From Ephemerocybe angulata (lineage: Eukaryota; Basidiomycota; Agaricomycetes; Agaricales; Psathyrellaceae): a stretch of DNA of 64,000 nucleotides. Position 1 is the stretch's first letter. Each line of letters begins with the position of its first letter. Of the stretch, positions 53,576 to 64,000 are shown piece by piece. The notes beneath the pieces are model-generated. The model ran no database searches. It was not told where the DNA came from and was given only the letters and a program-made list of their open reading frames with translations. The position numbers were made by a program, and so were the translations under genes. Where the stretch lies: positions 122,868 to 186,867 of the forward strand of contig JAACJK010000124.1 of NCBI GenBank assembly GCA_013368325.1, read 5' to 3'.

Positions 53576-54640
53576 TATGGGTTCACAGGTCTTGTGTAAG
53601 GATAGTCCTCGAGTAGAATCAGTAGATCGCAAGCTATTCCACTGAAGCCCCGAAGGTTGGCGAGCAATAGGAAGAACACATATGACAATCGATACTGAGC
53701 ACCTGCAGCCTCATATCCACGGAAAGGAGGATAATTTACACCATCGCTTCTGCACGGCCGGTCTGTGCGCGCTGAGTAGATCTCCGGAGTGATGTTTCCG
53801 AGGCATTTTGGCTCGGGTACTCTTACGGTGGATTTCCCCGCGCCAAGCCTTTGAGCCTCCCTGTGCATCAAACGATCAAAAATCCGTTCCGCTTCGCCGC
53901 CTCCGTTCCGCGTCGCGCCCATCATTTTCCCTTTGCCGCAGCCGGCCCGTCCCATCCCTTTCTACAACGGTCCTCGCTCCCTTCCTTCTTCCCCTGCATC
54001 CTACCTTCTCCCCCTTTCCTAATCAGCTTCCTTTTATGCGTTGGTACGTATTCCTGCATTCAAATGTCCCTCCTTCATCATCTCCTTAATTAATCCTAGC
54101 TACACATACTATAGTCTCTAGCTTTATTAGCCTTGTGCAGCCCGCCCCACGCGCATAATCCTCTTCTTCCCGTCCTCGAGGTTAGTCCTATCGCGCTGCA
54201 GCCTTGCGTGAATGTAATCCACGTCGCAACCACCGTAAATTTGGGACGGATATGGTATAACAAAAAGGTGGTGCCGATATAGTATATAAAAAGAGTGTGA
54301 AACATCAACTTCAAAAGCGGCGAAGTAGAGAGCGTACTAAGTAGCGTAACCAATAAATGAGCGTGAAACCCCAACATGACAACCCCCGAAGTAGTACGGG
54401 TCCAAATGGAGGCATAGATATAGATAATTAGAGTAGGAAGTCGCTGAAAGGAGTGGAAAGTGGATGTCCCATATAAGGGTCGTCTCGAAATAGTGGTCCA
54501 TAAGACTGATGTAATTATACTGAGAAATCACTGGAAAGAGTGGATGGTCGAGGACCCATATTCGGTACCTCTCCAAATATTGTTCAAACGGGTATCTTGT
54601 GCATCGCCTGCGCATTCCTATGTCCTCCGTCACCTCCGTT
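53576..54640. other. 3' flank of the 54.65 kb gene; unassigned
   Basis: Contains C/T-rich stretches (53930-54090) and, at 54440-54570, a partial ~90 bp duplication (GGAGTGGAAAGTGGATGTCC against GAGTGGATGGTCGAGGACCC). No gene supported. Confidence 0.45.
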
Positions 54641-54649
54641 ATACCCTCC

Positions 54650-56185
54650 TCAGTCGACGTTCATCGCATCCCCGCGCTCCCCTGCCTCAGCTGCGTCATC
54701 GCCTCCACCTTCCCCTTCCACTCCGTGCACGTCCTCGTCGTCGGAGTCGGGGAGGTCCGGTAACATCTCCCCCTCCTCCAACTCCCCTCCACTTACAGCC
54801 TCTGCACTGTCGTCCTCACCTTCATTGCCTTCTACATCCCCACCTCCCTCTCCTTCCCCATCCGCCTCGCCCTCAGCCGCGCCATCCCCATCGCCTTCGC
54901 CTCCTCCTACCGTGGAACTTCCATCGCTTCCTTCAACTTCAATGATCTCTCCTTCTTCGTTCCCGACCTCAGTTTCCGTCACCGGTGCGAATACGGGCGC
55001 AGGAACGCGCTCGCGACTGTCCTCGCTCCTTCGAGTTCTCTTCGTCCCATGCGCGTCTCCACACACCTCCTCCTCTGTGAGATATAACCTCTTCCGACGC
55101 GGTGTCCTATTCAACGCCACAAGTGCCATCGTCATCCTCGTGGTGCGTTCGGACTCCTGTGTAGATGTTAATGACCCTGGACACAGTCCGACGAATGTCC
55201 TCTCACCTTTCTTATCGTATTATCCAGAAGCGTCAGACCACGCAACTGCAAGAGGATGCGCATGCGTTGCCCTTTGATGGGTACGCCAACGCAAGAGAAA
55301 GCGACCTCGACTACGTCTCCCACCTTGAATACGCTGGGTTCGCAAGGGCCGTAACTGCGGTTGTGCCGGTCAGCGAGAGTACTCCTCACGGAGGGAACGG
55401 TACTCACGTTGTAGACCCGTTAGCGACCGCTCGTACGCAGTACTCCACGACGTTGTCGGCCGCGTGGATGAATTCGTCGGGTTGCAGCTTCCGGAGGACG
55501 TCGAAGGGGTCCACCCCCGGGAGAAATGCCTGGTTCTTCTCGTACGGCACGAGAGCCCTGTCCGTGAAGTACCGCGAATGCACCTCCAGCGACTGGTGCC
55601 CTTCGTATGGGATAAACTCGATCTGGTCTACTTCCCTGTCGCGCGCGTGCTGGGCGAAGGCGTCGTGGACCGTCTGAAGCTTGTCCATGTATGCGTCATA
55701 TTCGCTTGACCCGAATCCAGTGACCTTGACGTGCTGTCTGAGGTTCCTTATCCTGGATAGGCCTTTAGACCGAGGAGACGATACACTGTACTGGGGGTCA
55801 GTGCCCTTGACGGATTGCAGAGCTGCGTAGGGACTTACGGCGACTCCGTGAAGGGTGGTAATAGTTTACCGCACATAACTCCCTGCACTTTGAACACGAC
55901 CTCGTCCTCCCCGTCCATGATACGAGTCGAAGGTGGGTACTGGATGTCCATCAGGCGCATTTTGTCGATCTGGAGGCTTAATATTAGTCGTGTCCCTCTA
56001 CGGTCGTAGCGGGGGCGTACAGACCTCTGCCTGCGCCAGGCTCACGAAGCCGTCTGCGATCGTCTGCAGCTGTCCTTTCCCGATGTCGCCCAACAGCCGG
56101 GCTGATTGGACACTTGGGTTAGTAGACATCGTCGGCCATCTGTATTGTACTCACTGGCTTTGTCGACATCGTACTGGTGGTTCAT
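54650..56185 (-). CDS. Intact unknown protein with conserved core and acidic tail
   Basis: Six exons (56185-56155, 56101-56025, 55969-55839, 55785-55408, 55333-55207, 55156-54650) join in a single frame to about 416 residues. The core has MRLMDIQYPPSTRIMDGEDE, LRQHVKVTGFGSSEYDAYMD, FIPYEGHQSLEVHSRYFTDR and FKVGDVVEVAFSCVGVPIKG followed by RILLQLRGLTLLDNTIRK. The KVGDVVEVA...QLRGLTLLD block resembles an uncharacterised domain I associate with mushroom accessory or transposon-linked genes (recall, not a search). The last ~110 residues are very rich in Glu, Asp and Gly (EEGEIIEVEGSDGSSTVGGG). It is transcribed away from the large gene at 57.0 kb, with which it shares an ~815 bp promoter interval. 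Function unknown. Confidence 0.75.
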
Positions 56186-56999
56186 TTGATGCGGGTGAAT
56201 ACGATGGGTAGGGTTATGGGGTCTCGACTTTGCCGTTCATCAGTTTTATATCAGATCGATACTGTTTCGATGCTTTAGCCTTTGTCTAATATGGTGTCAT
56301 GTCTCCATCGTACACGCACCTCCTAGTGGCAGCTAGTGGCACCCGCCCCGTATTCCGATCTCCATGCGCAGCCCCCAACCGCTTTCATCACCCCTCCGAT
56401 GCATCTAAGTGCCTGCGGTCTGAGTAAGGAGTACCATCGGGCGCAAGTACCATGCTGTCGCTGCGCTTCAGATCCTATCGTCGCCTGTTAATCGCTTCGT
56501 TCTTTTTTAATTCCCCATATTGCTCTGCGTGGGGATGGACGTTGGTACCCCAGAAATATAGAGTGTGAGGGACGGATACATGCAGGGGCGCGGCGCCCTC
56601 GCCTGCCCGGTCCACGATCCCTGATCTTAGACTTATCTTTGATCAGATAAATAATCGGAGATCTCCGGGGGCATGTGATGTTGGTCTCGTGTCCAGGTAC
56701 GACCCTGGCATGACGATGGAATCTGTCTTTGACGACCTCTTCTCTTCGGATGCGCACCCTCTATCCGCAAATTGTAGCTCGTCTGAATTTGGGGCTGGTA
56801 AGTTGCTGCTAGGCGCCCACATTTCCCTTTTGATTTCTTCGTGACACCATGTGGATAGCTTCCTCGATGGAGGACCAGCATGTGTTCCTCGGCTTTCCCA
56901 ATGCTACGGGAGGGTTCTGTCTTTCCTGGCGACCTATAACTTGTTCGCTTGTTCGTTTTGGATCCCCCCTCGGCCATCTACCTGACCTTCGGTTTTACG
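56186..56999. promoter_or_regulatory. Divergent intergenic region
   Basis: The only space between the starts of two oppositely transcribed intact genes. It contains no supportable coding frame; ORFs here lack domains. It presumably holds both promoters, but I see no clear TATA pair. Confidence 0.45.
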
Positions 57000-59900
57000 A
57001 TGTCTACCAAACCGTCTTACGCTGAAGTTGCTTCGCGATCTCCGTCCCCTACCTCTCGGTCTCCGTCGCCTGTGCACATTCCTAGTACTCCCACTCCCCG
57101 AGGAAAGCGTAAGGATGGAGCCTCCAACGTGAAGGCGGAAACTCCCCGCACCCCCAAACCGGCCAAGGCTGATGCATCTCCGAGCAAGCGGTGAGTTCAA
57201 TTGGCCTCCGCTTGTCTGCACCCCACCTGATATGCTGCCTTGTAGCTCTAGTTCGTCTGGATTGTGCGTAGACTCGTCGCGTCTCTTACAGCCCTGTGGC
57301 TCTAACGTCCTTTGTTTATTGTCTCAAGTGTCACCAAGTTCAAAGCCGATGGGAGTACAGTCGAGGTTGAAGTCGACACCGCCTCAGACGACGACTCCGG
57401 GCAAGACGCGTATGTTCTCACCCACCCCTCTCTACCCTTGTTTCCTGACCTTTGGGTGTAGAGGTGTAGGGATGGATCCCAGCGACTCCATGTATTCGGG
57501 GAGGGCGTCAAAGAATCGCATTGAACCGGCGGCCCCCTCGATTATCGAAACTCGAGCCACGGCGGCTCGAAGAGCCTCCTCGCGCGTTAGAGCCGGTGAA
57601 CCCCCTGCTTCAGGCAACTCTGGAGAACGATCGAGGACCCAAGAGACCACTCGCGGCAGGAAGTCCAAGGCGTCCTCCAGTAAGCTCGCGGATGTTGTCC
57701 CTCCATCCGAAGTCATGGTCGAAGACGTTCCTTCAACCAGTACCAAGAGGTGTGATTCCTGTCCTCCTTCGTACACCTCACATTAACCCTACTTGCAGTA
57801 AGCGCCATCGCGCCCAGAACTCCGTCGTGCTCTCCGCCAATGAGGACACCAGCGACCATGACGCGTCTAAAAAGCGGTGCGTCGTCGAGTTCACAGCGCT
57901 TTATTAATTGATGTTCACCCGCATGAACTGCAGCAGGAAACGCGTTCGCTTGGCCACGGATACTCCCCAGCATGTGCCATCTGACGACGAAGCTATGCCT
58001 GGGCAACTGGAGCAGTGCGTATAATTTAATGGTACTATCGGTCGGCGACACCCACGCTCATTGTCGTTCCCTTAGCTGTTCTTCCGACATGGACGCGGAG
58101 CAGGGCCCTGTAGCTGCTCAGCTATCCGATGACGACATGAGTGAAGGCGAGGCAGACTTGTCGCCTTTGACGGATATCGACATGGAAGAAGGAGAGGTTG
58201 ATGCCGTTTCGTTCTCGGCTGAGCAGGATGTCGAGCTCCAGGACGCGGCCTCTGCCTCGAGCGACGCCGATGCCGACGAAGGAGACGAGGAGGGTTCGGC
58301 TTATGGGCGCGGCTACGTGGAAGACGACGCCGTCATGTCTGATGGAGAGAATGTGGGGGAAGGTCGGGAAAGTAGTACCGGGGGTCGCGCGAGCGCCATG
58401 TCATCCCCGCCAGGACCTCATGATGTACCTTTGCACGACAACGAGACCGTCGGCTACGATTTGGATGACCCCTTCATGTCAGTTGAACACTCTGCACGCC
58501 ATTGCCCGTATACTGACATGTCTTCCAGTGATGATGGTCCAGTCGCACCCGGACAATCGGCGGATTTTGAAAGTCCTACAGACGATGAGGACGGAGACCG
58601 CCACCACGACGGACCTGCCCCGGCCAATCCTCCCTCCGTGTCCGAACATGGAGAGGGGTGTGGAGGCGATGACGAAGCCGTTCACGAAGCATCCATATCG
58701 GGGTACGTCTCCTACTCTCCGCTGTCTGTCGTGCCCGTATCCGTAGTAACAGTGCCATCTAGCGACTCTGCGTCATACCAAGGCTCCGAAGATGAAGGTG
58801 GCAGCGACGCTGCTTCCGTATATGCTCTCCCCTTGACGCAGCCTCGCCCATGGAAGACTCCAGGTGGAGGTCCCTCACTCCGTCCTGCGAGTAGCTACGA
58901 TGAGCCGTCGTCACCCGCGACAGCTCCCCTTCTCGAGCACCAGGCAATATCTACGACGCGGCCTCAGCGGAACAAAAACACCAAGCCATCCGTTCCCGAT
59001 CCAGGTGCCCGTTCGTCCCTTTTCTTTACTTTCGGGTTGTGTTATGACTTATCATCGTTTATTTTCGTAGAATCCACCGTGAAGCCGAAGCCCTCTGTTT
59101 CGCAGCCTTCGTCCACGGCACATGTGACTCCTGCGACCTCCGTCGAAGTGCTGGAGGCCAAGTCGAGTCAGTCAACTCCTCCTGCGAACGCTGTATCCTC
59201 AAAGTCGTCACCCGCCTCAGCGCGCCGTGTACGCTCCACAGGCTCATCAAGGAAGGACACCAAATCCGCCACGACCGCTGACCACGCTCCGCCTTCCACC
59301 GATAAACAGGTTGGACGTTCTTCGCGACGTCGCAAAGCCGACAACAAGGAGAGCAACGAAGCGGGTAGTACACCAGACTCCCATGCCAAAGACCCAGCAT
59401 CCTCACGGCTTCCCACTGATTCGGTCGATGTACCTGAGAACAACCGTAACACAGAAAGCGCACAGTCACCCGACGGCGATCGACGGTCGTCCTCGACTCG
59501 TACGACGTCCCAGCCCGTCGATTCGTCTCCCTCCCCCCATCCACGCCGCGATAAGTCCACGAAGTCGAAACCCCTCGCCCCTCCACCGTCTTCGTCTGCT
59601 CCCAGTCAGGATGTCAAGCCAAAGCCGATCAGGTCGAAGGAGCCTTCTGCATCGTCCGCGCCGTCTGCCACCCGTCAAGTCGATAAGTCCAAGCCAACAG
59701 TCACCTCGCCTTCTGCTCCGGTTCCCTCCCTCAACCAGGGTACAACGCCCACTCTTGTATCTTCACCCCCTCCTCCGCCATCCACCCCTCGTCCCAAGTC
59801 GTCAAGGTCCGGTGCCAGTGCAACGCCGACGTCCGCTGATCAAGTGTCCACTGCGACATCCGCCGCCACACCCGCCCATGTTTCCGCCATCTCGCTCGAC

Positions 59901-61635
59901 AAGAAATCTGCCTCAAAGTCAGCTGCCAAGAAGAGAACCACCAGCGGAAGAGGGTCGACGTCTACTCCCGATGTGGCTGCGTCCTCTCCAGCTGTCACCT
60001 CACGAGAGAAGAAGTCTACTTCGAACACGACCGTGTCCTCCGGACTGTCGAAGCCTGACCCCGAGCAACCCGTCAGCATCGTCTCCGCAGGGAAACAGAA
60101 AGCGTCGTCCCGTACCCCTGCCGCGCGCCCGTCTAAGGCGTCGGACCCCACGGCTTCGGTAGTTCGAGGATCGAGCCGCAAAGCAGCCTCTGGTAGCTCC
60201 CGTTCTGGTAAACGGTCCGCACCTGTCGATGCAGTCAAGCCGCCTGGCGACTCCGTTCACGAGGCTGGCGAGCAAGGAGAATCCTCTGAGCCCGTCGCTG
60301 GTTCTGCAGTTGAGGCGGGCGGAGGGTCCGAGGATGCCAAGCCACCTGTGCGCTCGACTCCGGTCGTGCAAAAGTCCGAGGCGGGCGGAGGATCAGAGGA
60401 CGCCAAGCCGGCTGTCAGCTCTACCCCGGTCGTGCAGAAACCCAACGCCGCTCGTTCCTTCAAGTCTATGTTCAAGGAGCGGAATCCGGCTGTACCAGGT
60501 CGCGCACTCGCGGGCGCGTATTTCAACAAGGCTCGCACACCTCCCGAAACCTGTCAGGTCATGGACGAAGCTCTGCAAGACCCGGCCCTGAAGAAAACGT
60601 ACGAAGACTTAGATCCTGTATGGTTCGTCCTGTTCGTTGAAAGATAGGTGGTATAAACGACTTACCAGCTCTATCGGCGGTTTACAGGTCGGGCAAGTTT
60701 CAATTGTGGACGGATGTAGCCGGGAAGGGTACTTATTCATTCAGCAACTGGATTGACGACTGTCCTCTGCTCGACTACGAGTACGTTGCGATCGCTTCCG
60801 TCTGACCGCTCGCTTACCGTTCCTGTATATCCAGTTCAGCCATAAACGCTATCGTCTTCAAGTCGCACAAGCAATTCCTCAATCCGTCTCGCGCATCCAC
60901 GCAGAGTGTGTTGGTGCGCGAGCTCCCGCCGGGTACGAAGCTCCAGCTCTACACCAGCGATCGTAGAGTTGCAATCTGTCTGTCCGCGGTCCAGGCGACC
61001 CAGTCGTATATCACCGAGCCCTGCCCCGTCGGCGTCAAGCAGAAGAAGCTTCATGGCGTATTCCACAGTCAGGAGTTCGAGCGGATGGTAGGATTTGTCT
61101 GCTCCGCCTTTTCGAAGGAGCTTCTTGGTGCGCAGTTGGGGATGGACGAGATGCAGTTCTGCTCAAAGTCTTTGTTCGGTGGTAAGATACTTCTAACCCT
61201 CGCATATATCGTACCTAACCTCGCATTTATGAAGACGGTGATGTTCCCGCCCCTAGAAGATATTCTCCCTCGAAACCGAGTCCGGCCACTGCCTCCGCGT
61301 CGGGGTCTACGTCTGCACCTGTTGGGGACTCGTTTAGCCTTGGCATCGAGGAAACCAGTACGTGTGCTTTCCCTTCTTCTCCACTTTATCTTGCCATATG
61401 CTGACGTGATAATATGTGTCCAGTTCCCGTTTACGATTGCACCGGGTTCGTTCTGGACCTCGAGCGTGACCTGGACAGGCTCGATCAGCTACCCCGGTGG
61501 GACGGTGAGATCCCCCGTAATTCGTTCGTTGTCGTCGCATACACTTTGTCCGTGTTCCACGGAAAGAAGGGACAGTGGAAGGTTAGTTTCAATATTCGCT
61601 GGGTCATGCTTATCGGAAATGGCGAAGCGAGATGA
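57000..61635 (+). CDS. Large intact unknown protein, Ser/Pro-rich with folded C-terminal domain
   Basis: Eleven exons join in frame: 57000-57190, 57246-57263, 57329-57409, 57462-57749, 57799-57876, 57934-58014, 58076-60622, 60688-60780, 60835-61181, 61235-61357, 61424-61635; about 1352 residues. Exon 7 holds three further candidate introns of 51, 60 and 66 nt (from 58478, 58702 and 59003), all multiples of three; if removed the protein has ~1293 residues. Residues up to ~1080 are disordered, with acidic runs (DMSEGEADLSPLTDIDMEEG) and Ser/Pro/Lys runs; AGGGSEDAKP occurs twice. The C-terminal domain (SGKFQLWTDVAGKGTYSFSN, LPPGTKLQLYTSDRRVAICL, GFVLDLERDLDRLDQLPRWD, NSFVVVAYTLSVFHGKKG, NIRWVMLIG) looks folded and conserved. 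No known catalytic motif. The start could also be 56949. Confidence 0.75.
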
Positions 61636-61878
61636 TATCGTGAATCTTTTACCTCAGTAGCCTATCCAGTCGTGCCCTGATACTATATCGTCAACCCGCA
61701 CTGTCCTGTATATCATAGCTTTCTATCACCTGTGGCAATGTACAGAGATTAAACGTTTGTTTGTATATGTTATCACGTGAAGGCTTCGACTTGTGATTAC
61801 ACGTAATGGGACCGTTCTCCTGACTATGTACCCTTCTCTTTCGACAGCCACGTCTCTCCTACCATACATCCTCAACGG

Positions 61879-64000
61879 TTGTATATACCCTACTTATCCT
61901 CTGAAATGCATATCGACACAACTCGCCCTGACGATGCGTTACCCGTTACCCGTGATTCTGGTGCCGCCTCCCTCTACGGAGGCGGCGCACATGTGCAGAG
62001 AAGTTTACCTGGGCAGAGCTTGGGCCCTTTCTGGTGCAGAATGACCTTGACGGTCCCGCCTACGTGTCTGGAACATACGAACTCGTCAGATATGCCCCTC
62101 GTGGATCGATCGGGAATATACTCGGCTCTCATGACGGTGCGTTTGAGCTGGATGTCCCCTTAGAACTCCTTCTTCCCCACCTCAACTTGACCGAGCTCAA
62201 GTCTGTCGCCAAGTCCACGGGCTCAAACCGCAGCGAGGTCAATCCAGGGAATCCATTGTCTCCGTCTTGCGCGAGCATGTCTGTGGTGGTTGTGAACCCC
62301 ACACGTCCATTTTCACTTGCTCGTCGTCTCGGGCGGGTCAGCCCATTCCCCGACCAGAGTATATTAACGACGCTATCAGAAGCATTAAGAGCTTCACTCT
62401 CGACGAGATCCTAAAGTTCGCGAATATACCTTCCGATGTTCAGCCAACGTACGCGTCCGGAAGCTCGACTGTTGGCACTGGATGTCGTCGAAGATGCTGG
62501 TACTAGAACAGGGACGACCATCCTGGGGGACTCTTTCGTGTGTCACGACGTTCCTTGGATGACGCTAGCCAAGAAAGGTACTAACGGCACCTGTGGTCTG
62601 CCTGGCTAGTCTCCACGGTGTGGAGTTTCCTGTACGTACCTCAAAGGCTGGGGGAATACTGGAGCTTGGAAAACACGTGTGCGTAGACTGCCCGTCCTAT
62701 CATGCCGTGTTCGTCCCCGTTATCAAGCCAAAGGCTGCGCAGAAACCCAGGGCTGCTGACGTTGAACCCCATACTGTGGTCCTGGTGCCAGAAGAAGATG
62801 AAAGGGTGTTAAATATCCCCCGCCTCCGTTGACCAACGCCGATAGACTGTCTATTGTTCGTGACTTCTGTGAGGACTTGCGACCCGAACATTTTGAAGAG
62901 TCTGGATGCGCGTCATGTGGGCAGTTGACCCTCCTGACTGAGCTTACGCCTCTCGAGTCGTTAGCGTGTTCGCTCGACCCCTTAGTGGAGCCCGGTCTAG
63001 CCAGACGCGAGCGCCATAGCTCGAGGATCCAATTGAATATGAATCTGGGCCCATTCTAGATAAATCTCTACCGCGATATGTCCTGTTTGTGTCGACGCAC
63101 TCAACAACGGCCGACGACCCCATAATGCGCTTGCGAATGGACTATGGGTAGGCCCTGTACCTAGTATCCTGGCCGATCTTACCTACGCTGAGCAGGTCTT
63201 GGTTGCCCGAATTCGAACTAACCGCTGCGTCGTTCGTGTCTCGTCTGCCCCCGGTCGACCGGCGCACTCAAAGATGATTGCTAACGCGATTTCATTTGCG
63301 TGTCCTACAATGAAATTTATCACCAGCTGCCTCCTCCTCGGAGTGAGGTAGACGAGTATTGGCCTTCATCTTCACTGGGTCAACCCACCTGAAGAGGATG
63401 AGATCGTCAGGTCCCCGATGCTGGTGCGCCGTAACAATGTCAAGAATGCTCTTGAATGGCTCAAGCTGAACCACGCCGACTATGCCGATTTACTGATGAC
63501 TACGAGAACCCTAGGCACCTATCCTGAGCGCGGATCCGTCGTCAAAGTAGTTGTCAGAGCGTTGGAGGACGGCACGAATGTAGTCGCGTCGACGACGAGT
63601 GTTCATGACACCTTTGAAGACGATGGAACCACCAGCGGACCTTGCCCATTCACCGTGAATGGCCTGATCGGGAGCCGTCTTGATAGCATGTCTCTTGACG
63701 CCCGAAGGGCCGCAGCAACTAGGCATTTACGAACGGGGGGATAGTACCGTCTTGGCTGTTGGCCATTCGGACACTCCCGAATCGAAGTATAACAATCCTC
63801 AACTATATCCACAGATCTACCCCTGGTTGTTTCCCTACGGCTCGGGGGGTTGGGTACTGCGAGACTGCATGGCAGGATGTCCGAGACGACTCAGAAGAAA
63901 TGGATGCTCATGTACCATGACAAGAGGTTCCAGACGGAAACCCGCTTCATTATCGTCGCGTTCAACGATGAGCAGATTAAGGAAAGTAAAAACGGTAGTA
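61879..64000 (+). mobile_element. Helitron Rep/helicase, N-terminal part, frameshifted, runs off window
   Basis: The order of blocks fits a basidiomycete Helitron protein. AYVSGTYELVRYAPRGSIGN and LTELKSVAKSTG (SAP-like helix) are followed by zinc-finger-like HVCGGCEPHTSIF (62270) and HVCVDCPSYHAVF (62675), and ESGCASCGQLTLLTELTPLE. A DUF6570-type domain follows (CVDALNNGRRPHNALANGLW, LADLTYAEQVLVARIRTNRC, MLVRRNNVKNALEWLKLNHA). Then comes the Helitron-like N domain (VGHSDTPESKYNNPQLYPQI, YPWLFPYGSGG, MLMYHDKRFQTETRFIIVAF). At least six frame changes (for example near 62035, 62235, 63080, 63310, 63745, 63850) show decay, although some may hide introns. The HUH nuclease and helicase regions lie beyond 64000. 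No left terminus could be identified. Confidence 0.85.

Follow-up and report, generated by a model that had tools for sequence, protein, structure and literature searches.

Helitrons that carry additional genes

Helitrons are moved by RepHel, which is described as working via a circular intermediate with one strand transposed (PMC6431247). The closest described systems are the plant Helitrons PHRPA and the Mothra family, a lineage with an extra gene for a single-strand-binding (SSB) protein that is RPA-like (PMC4683698). RPA has also been listed in cnidarian and fish Helitrons and, for certain fungal Helitrons, so have OTU or endonuclease domains (PMC6431247). Additional genes in fungal Helitrons are usually termed captured. 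The element described here is a giant Helitron from the mushroom Ephemerocybe angulata that looks autonomous, and its 5' part lies in the final 64 kb of contig C90 (the window; the genome is 58.7 Mb in 232 contigs). It carries two further genes, here called M and P, in the order M (reverse), P (forward), RepHel (forward).

At 17–25 kb the element exceeds the 6–7 to 14 kb given for fungal Helitrons (PMC6431247). It resembles HELPO1 of Pleurotus ostreatus, in which cap genes of unknown function are reported downstream of RepHel (PMC4289320), in being a basidiomycete Helitron with extra genes beside RepHel. It differs from the published description in that M and P are upstream of RepHel and in its 3' end. 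The HELPO ends are described as canonical; HELPO2 also departs from CTRR, with CTTG (PMC4289320). Fungal Helitrons with a TET/JBP gene likewise have an accessory gene thought helpful to the transposon, but this is a dioxygenase that may counter methylation (PMC12730594), unlike M with its predicted replication-type fold.

If the fold predicted for M is correct, the element is most like PHRPA and Mothra, as a Helitron lineage with an additional SSB-type gene. PHRPA, as described, is an RPA homologue recognised by sequence, whereas M has no RPA or OB match at Pfam cut-offs and has a predicted fold of the T7 gp2.5 or giant-virus type; M is, in addition, head to head with P. Compared with the T7 gp2.5-type SSBs (T7 gp2.5, phage Enc34 ORF6) and the giant-virus-type CP312R, M is transposon-encoded in a eukaryote and intron-rich, with no detectable sequence similarity to these proteins, the likeness being one of predicted fold. 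Among the matches listed in the open-access literature, subscription papers being outside this scope, no description of a gp2.5-type SSB in a Helitron was found. The novelty lies in a lineage of giant fungal Helitrons that has, as an integral part, an SSB-like gene of virus type together with its paired gene; the SSB identity is a prediction from a modelled fold and the mechanism a proposal.

M, P and RepHel form one mobile unit

A first-pass annotation, made from the window alone, had reported two intact, divergent genes sharing one promoter interval, and this is confirmed, with starts 814 bp apart and all exon joins in frame. The intactness stands, but not the count of seventeen exons, which becomes 20, nor the lengths, which change from 416 to 423 amino acids for M and from ~1350 to 1293 for P. 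All 18 introns are GT-AG. Near-identical database models exist for M (P0001, 412 amino acids) and for P (P0015, 1290 amino acids, without the micro-exon 57246-57263). The long acidic or Ser/Pro-rich regions that had been reported are also present, as a 123-residue acidic tail in M (net charge about -40) and as acidic and Ser/Pro-rich stretches before the C-terminal domain of P. RepHel starts ~0.27 kb past the stop of P, in agreement with the Helitron placed there as the next gene, 0.25 kb on.

Searches of the genome identified 36 M loci (exon matches collapsed), 33 P loci and, from 106 matches to Helitron_like_N, 100 Rep loci. Sixteen M loci have 96–97% identity to the window at the best exon match, with the others ranging from 72% down to 23%. 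P is within 17.6 kb of 30 of the 36 M loci, in all 30 to the same side of M and on the strand opposite to it. Rep is found beyond P, on the strand of P, in 27 of these pairs, no more than 18 kb from M in 25 and ~27 kb away in two (C190, C218). The three pairs without Rep are C18:981944 and that of the window (C90), where the contig ends, and C126. Six M loci have no P (C18:193634, C117, C104, C218:651546, C133, C128:92422), three of which (C117, C104, C128:92422) have Rep, so that 30 of the 36 M loci have Rep. Among the P loci, 30 pair with M, two, on C93 and C228, are truncated at a contig edge, and for the remaining one, C11:103818, a matching M was located later. This additional set (M C11:114846, P C11:103818, Rep C11:91830) has the usual arrangement and is outside the counts; two divergent queries for M and P at the other Rep loci returned the known loci and C11:114846.

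M, P and RepHel are one multi-copy mobile unit with conserved order. The suggestion that the three could be one large element is upheld by these counts and by the ends that the copies share. The fact that the copies are near-identical indicates that the element has probably been active recently, and a multi-copy, near-identical system of this kind is suited to gene-removal tests of what an SSB does in Helitron transposition.

Predicted fold and proposed role of M

The predicted model of a 45%-identical homologue, rather than of the window M itself, has a gp2.5-type OB fold, and the KVGDVVEVA region, for which the first-pass annotation had proposed structure prediction, corresponds to its C-terminal strands. 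M has no match in Pfam, PHROGs or the PDB sequences. In four M homologues no RPA or OB family reached the Pfam cut-off, the best trace being MEIOB OB (E 0.16), and none of 8 pattern matches to M in viral contigs was confirmed. Sequence search can miss SSBs of this kind, as with that of ranavirus, which is reported as not predictable by BLAST (PMC8734342).

On the predicted fold, M most likely encodes a T7-gp2.5-type (giant-virus-type) single-stranded-DNA-binding protein, with an acidic tail in the window copy. The acidic tail is not universal in the M family, with net 6 or more for 6 of the 11 homologues compared. The short Coprinopsis forms P0005 and P0012 end in LDDFM and LDEFM, which we take to resemble the tips, acidic plus aromatic, seen in phage and bacterial SSBs. 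It is unlikely that M is instead an OB-fold protein with another job, such as a telomere, tRNA or regulatory nucleic-acid binder; the likeness to gp2.5, seen in the predicted fold, would then reflect shared OB architecture only.

We infer that M binds DNA and has a role in transposition. RepHel would nick and unwind the element, and M would coat the displaced strand during rolling-circle replication and integration, its acidic tail perhaps gating access to DNA or to partners. P may be a conserved partner, perhaps a scaffold. The role of M as strand coater is suggested by analogy with the plant Helitrons that carry an RPA-like gene. Taken as a whole, a giant Helitron with an integral SSB-type M and with P, in which M coats the strand, is regarded as probable. 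Such an element may bring some of its replication machinery with it.

With a conserved, selected SSB of gp2.5 type, Helitrons would have gained strand protection on more than one occasion and from unrelated sources, and giant-virus-type replication genes would be linked to eukaryotic transposons. Rather more tentatively, and with the balance slightly against it, a mushroom Helitron lineage may have taken its SSB gene from a giant virus or a common source and become an obligate three-gene rolling-circle replicon (SSB, P, RepHel). Were the origin viral, M would be an independent, non-RPA answer to strand protection, for which plant Helitrons may use RPA, and the transfer from virus to transposon would be old enough for copies at about 30% identity.

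Age and selection

The annotated protein closest to M, at 96% identity, is from Ephemerocybe angulata. There are 14 M homologues, 9 of them from other genera (Coprinopsis 5, Candolleomyces 3, Coprinellus 1) at 34–45% identity and 4 from E. angulata. No homologue of P outside E. angulata was present among the named matches, a group that does not include P0022, in searches limited by word sharing and length. The order and orientation of M and P are kept across lineages that differ at about 70% of residues. At 12 divergent loci M and P lose identity to the window copy in step with each other (Spearman 0.80, P value 0.002, which is indicative only as the loci are related).

The ratio of non-synonymous to synonymous substitution rates (dN/dS) is 0.072–0.274 for P exon 12, where dS was usable for 10 of 24 pairs (>50% identity), and 0.082–0.154 for M exon 4, in 5 of 10 pairs; dS is undefined in the pairs without a value and high in most. 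Where it can be measured, M and P are under purifying selection, as had been supposed for the pair at the outset. The suggestion that the pair could be cargo is not supported as far as recent host cargo is meant, given the order and orientation kept between such distant lineages, and M and P are most likely long-standing Helitron genes.

That M and P are host genes taken up by the Helitron and are now passengers serving the host or nothing is improbable. Helitrons are described as capturing DNA (PMC6431247), M and P are intron-rich, the six M loci above lack a nearby P, and neither M nor P is seen within 25 kb of 65 of the 100 Rep loci at this search sensitivity, all of which would be consistent with such passengers. 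However, no separate host copy stood out, as the P loci pair with M or sit at contig edges, the arrangement is retained down to about 30% identity, dN/dS is low where measurable, and the predicted fold of M is of a replication protein type. Some of the 'captured genes' of fungal Helitrons may, as a caution, be integral to the element and beyond naming by sequence methods.

Ends of the element and its two forms

Thirteen left boundaries were examined, of which 11 start with TTCCGAGG, with 10 distinct flanks, since the C39 and C41 copies share a flank that is counted once. The remaining two are C94, which is altered at its start, and C57, which gave no match. The 5'-TC terminus that the first-pass annotation had proposed to look for is present, as T followed by TCCGAGG, provided that the first T belongs to the target; the 3'-CTRR terminus is not. 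The 5' end has a T before it and, in the two long copies followed, the 3' end has a T after it, rather than the insertion lying between A and T.

A 634-base piece from the right side has 13 full matches and one partial match in the genome, and 11 of the 13, not including C185 and C91, were read onwards. The short-form copy in C228 runs to ...CATCTACAGG, followed by GG and then by the next copy, and the C39 copy departs from the others 7 bases beyond the point where the C228 copy ends. The other nine continue for at least 1.5 kb at 99.9–100% identity. Two of these, C93 and C214, both stop after ...CGGCTTCCCACAGGTA, with different sequence beyond, giving a 3' end for the long form of ...CCCACAGG followed by TA in both copies followed. 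A bulged 7-pair stem ends 14 nt before this end and is no better than shuffled sequences (z 0.25); no subterminal hairpin is present at the short-form 3' end. With these discrete ends, the 3' end being common to the two copies followed, the element has inserted at many sites as one unit.

By arithmetic over several contigs, the long form is ~24.7 kb and the short form ~17.3 kb. ACAGG is common to both 3' ends, so an alternative terminator may be at work in the short form. Equally, the long form may be a product of read-through into the DNA downstream, as in the bypass model outlined in PMC6431247.

The 3' extension of 7.4 kb (C93:14811-22242) is present in 9 of the 11 copies read and absent from C39 and C228. 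Its open reading frames (ORFs) look decayed and share GS-type and N-L-N-I motifs, with nothing above the Pfam cut-off for the three that were searched; the extension is possibly DNA captured by read-through. P0013, from Coprinopsis sp. MPI-PUGE-AT-0042, has an M-like start followed by a different domain with a GS...DLD-type motif, as in these ORFs, and is either a gene fusion or an annotation error.

In C228 two short-form copies (junction ~C228:12680) are 99.6% identical and follow one another head to tail, the period being 17,309 bp; this is an arrangement that rolling-circle elements can generate.

That the near-identical copies mark chromosome ends, as a telomere-targeted array, was rejected as very improbable: this one tandem array exists, and most near-identical 5' ends are close to a contig end with Rep pointing at it, reminiscent of the nematode Oscheius tipulae, where Helitron-like elements are reported in 11 of 12 telomere extensions (PMC8022731), but 3' ends with the RepHel side outward are also found within 7 kb of contig edges (C226, C217, C215, C214, C200, C199, C154), on C226 and C215 one contig edge has a 5' end and the opposite edge a 3' end, C39, C41, C57 and C90–C94 are not among the listed places with telomere repeats (a list reaching C150), and many divergent copies sit well inside contigs. 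Assembly breaks inside a long repeat give such a pattern.

Gene P and features of the window

The C-terminal domain of P has 38 invariant columns across 9 sequences, and from composition the rest of P looks disordered. Like M, P has no Pfam match above cut-off, and its AlphaFold model is of low confidence (pLDDT 32.6, pTM 0.27). The C-terminus reads through to ...FNIRWVMLIGNGEAR, and P0015 and the divergent copies read through in the same way. P was also considered as a diverged relative of M, as a terminal hairpin looks alike, and this was rejected on a profile comparison probability of 0.1–0.2%.

Table 1. Coordinates of the Helitron copy and its genes in the window
Feature	Position	Strand	Basis or remark
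Giant Helitron copy, 5' 10.2 kb	53796..64000	+	Homology with other copies begins here, left flank differs; cut by end of C90
5' terminus TTCCGAGG	53796..53803	+	First T possibly target
Gene M, 6 exons	54650..56185	-	Gene model
M exon 6, acidic tail and stop	54650..55156	-	Gene model
M exon 5, KVGDVVEVA region, C-terminal strands of predicted OB fold	55207..55354	-	Gene model, predicted fold
M exon 4, strongest matches to other copies	55408..55785	-	Gene model, genome search
M exon 3	55839..55969	-	Gene model
M exon 2	56025..56101	-	Gene model
M exon 1, start	56155..56185	-	Gene model
Divergent promoter interval shared by M and P, 814 bp	56186..56999		Distance between starts
Gene P, 14 exons	57000..61635	+	Gene model
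P exons 1-6	57000-57190, 57246-57263, 57329-57409, 57462-57749, 57799-57876, 57934-58014	+	Gene model
P exons 7-9, acidic stretch	58076-58477, 58529-58702, 58763-59004	+	Gene model
P exon 10, Ser/Pro-rich stretch	59071..60622	+	Gene model
P exons 11-14, conserved C-terminal domain	60688-60780, 60835-61181, 61235-61357, 61424-61635	+	Gene model, copy comparison
RepHel gene, N-terminal part only	61906..64000	+	Frameshifted in this copy, cut by contig end; start approximate

RepHel and the contig end

The first-pass annotation had argued for selection from an intact pair beside a broken Helitron. This argument fails, because the damage in the window clusters at the contig end and the RepHel frames in C228 are long and open. 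Compared with the tandem C228 copy, the window has 21 gap positions, of which 18 fall in its final 2.4 kb and 3 in the 7.8 kb that contain M and P; the second C228 copy, which is partial, gives 17 of 21 in those final 2.4 kb. Over 61640-64000 the density of indels relative to another copy climbs about twenty-fold toward the contig end. The damage to RepHel is specific to the window copy and not family-wide, and is probably mostly poor consensus or sequence error at the contig edge. Frameshift-based 'decay' close to the contig ends of this genome is to be distrusted.

C228 carries two long open RepHel frames without stops, of 1809 and 672 amino acids. The first contains DUF6570 (9.8e-36), Helitron_like_N (1e-35) and PIF1 (9.6e-23) in Pfam, and so has both the Rep and the PIF1 helicase parts. 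The second has no Pfam match, and the region past the helicase in this frame (WSCAYDSYFTILRY...) looks like a further enzyme-like domain.
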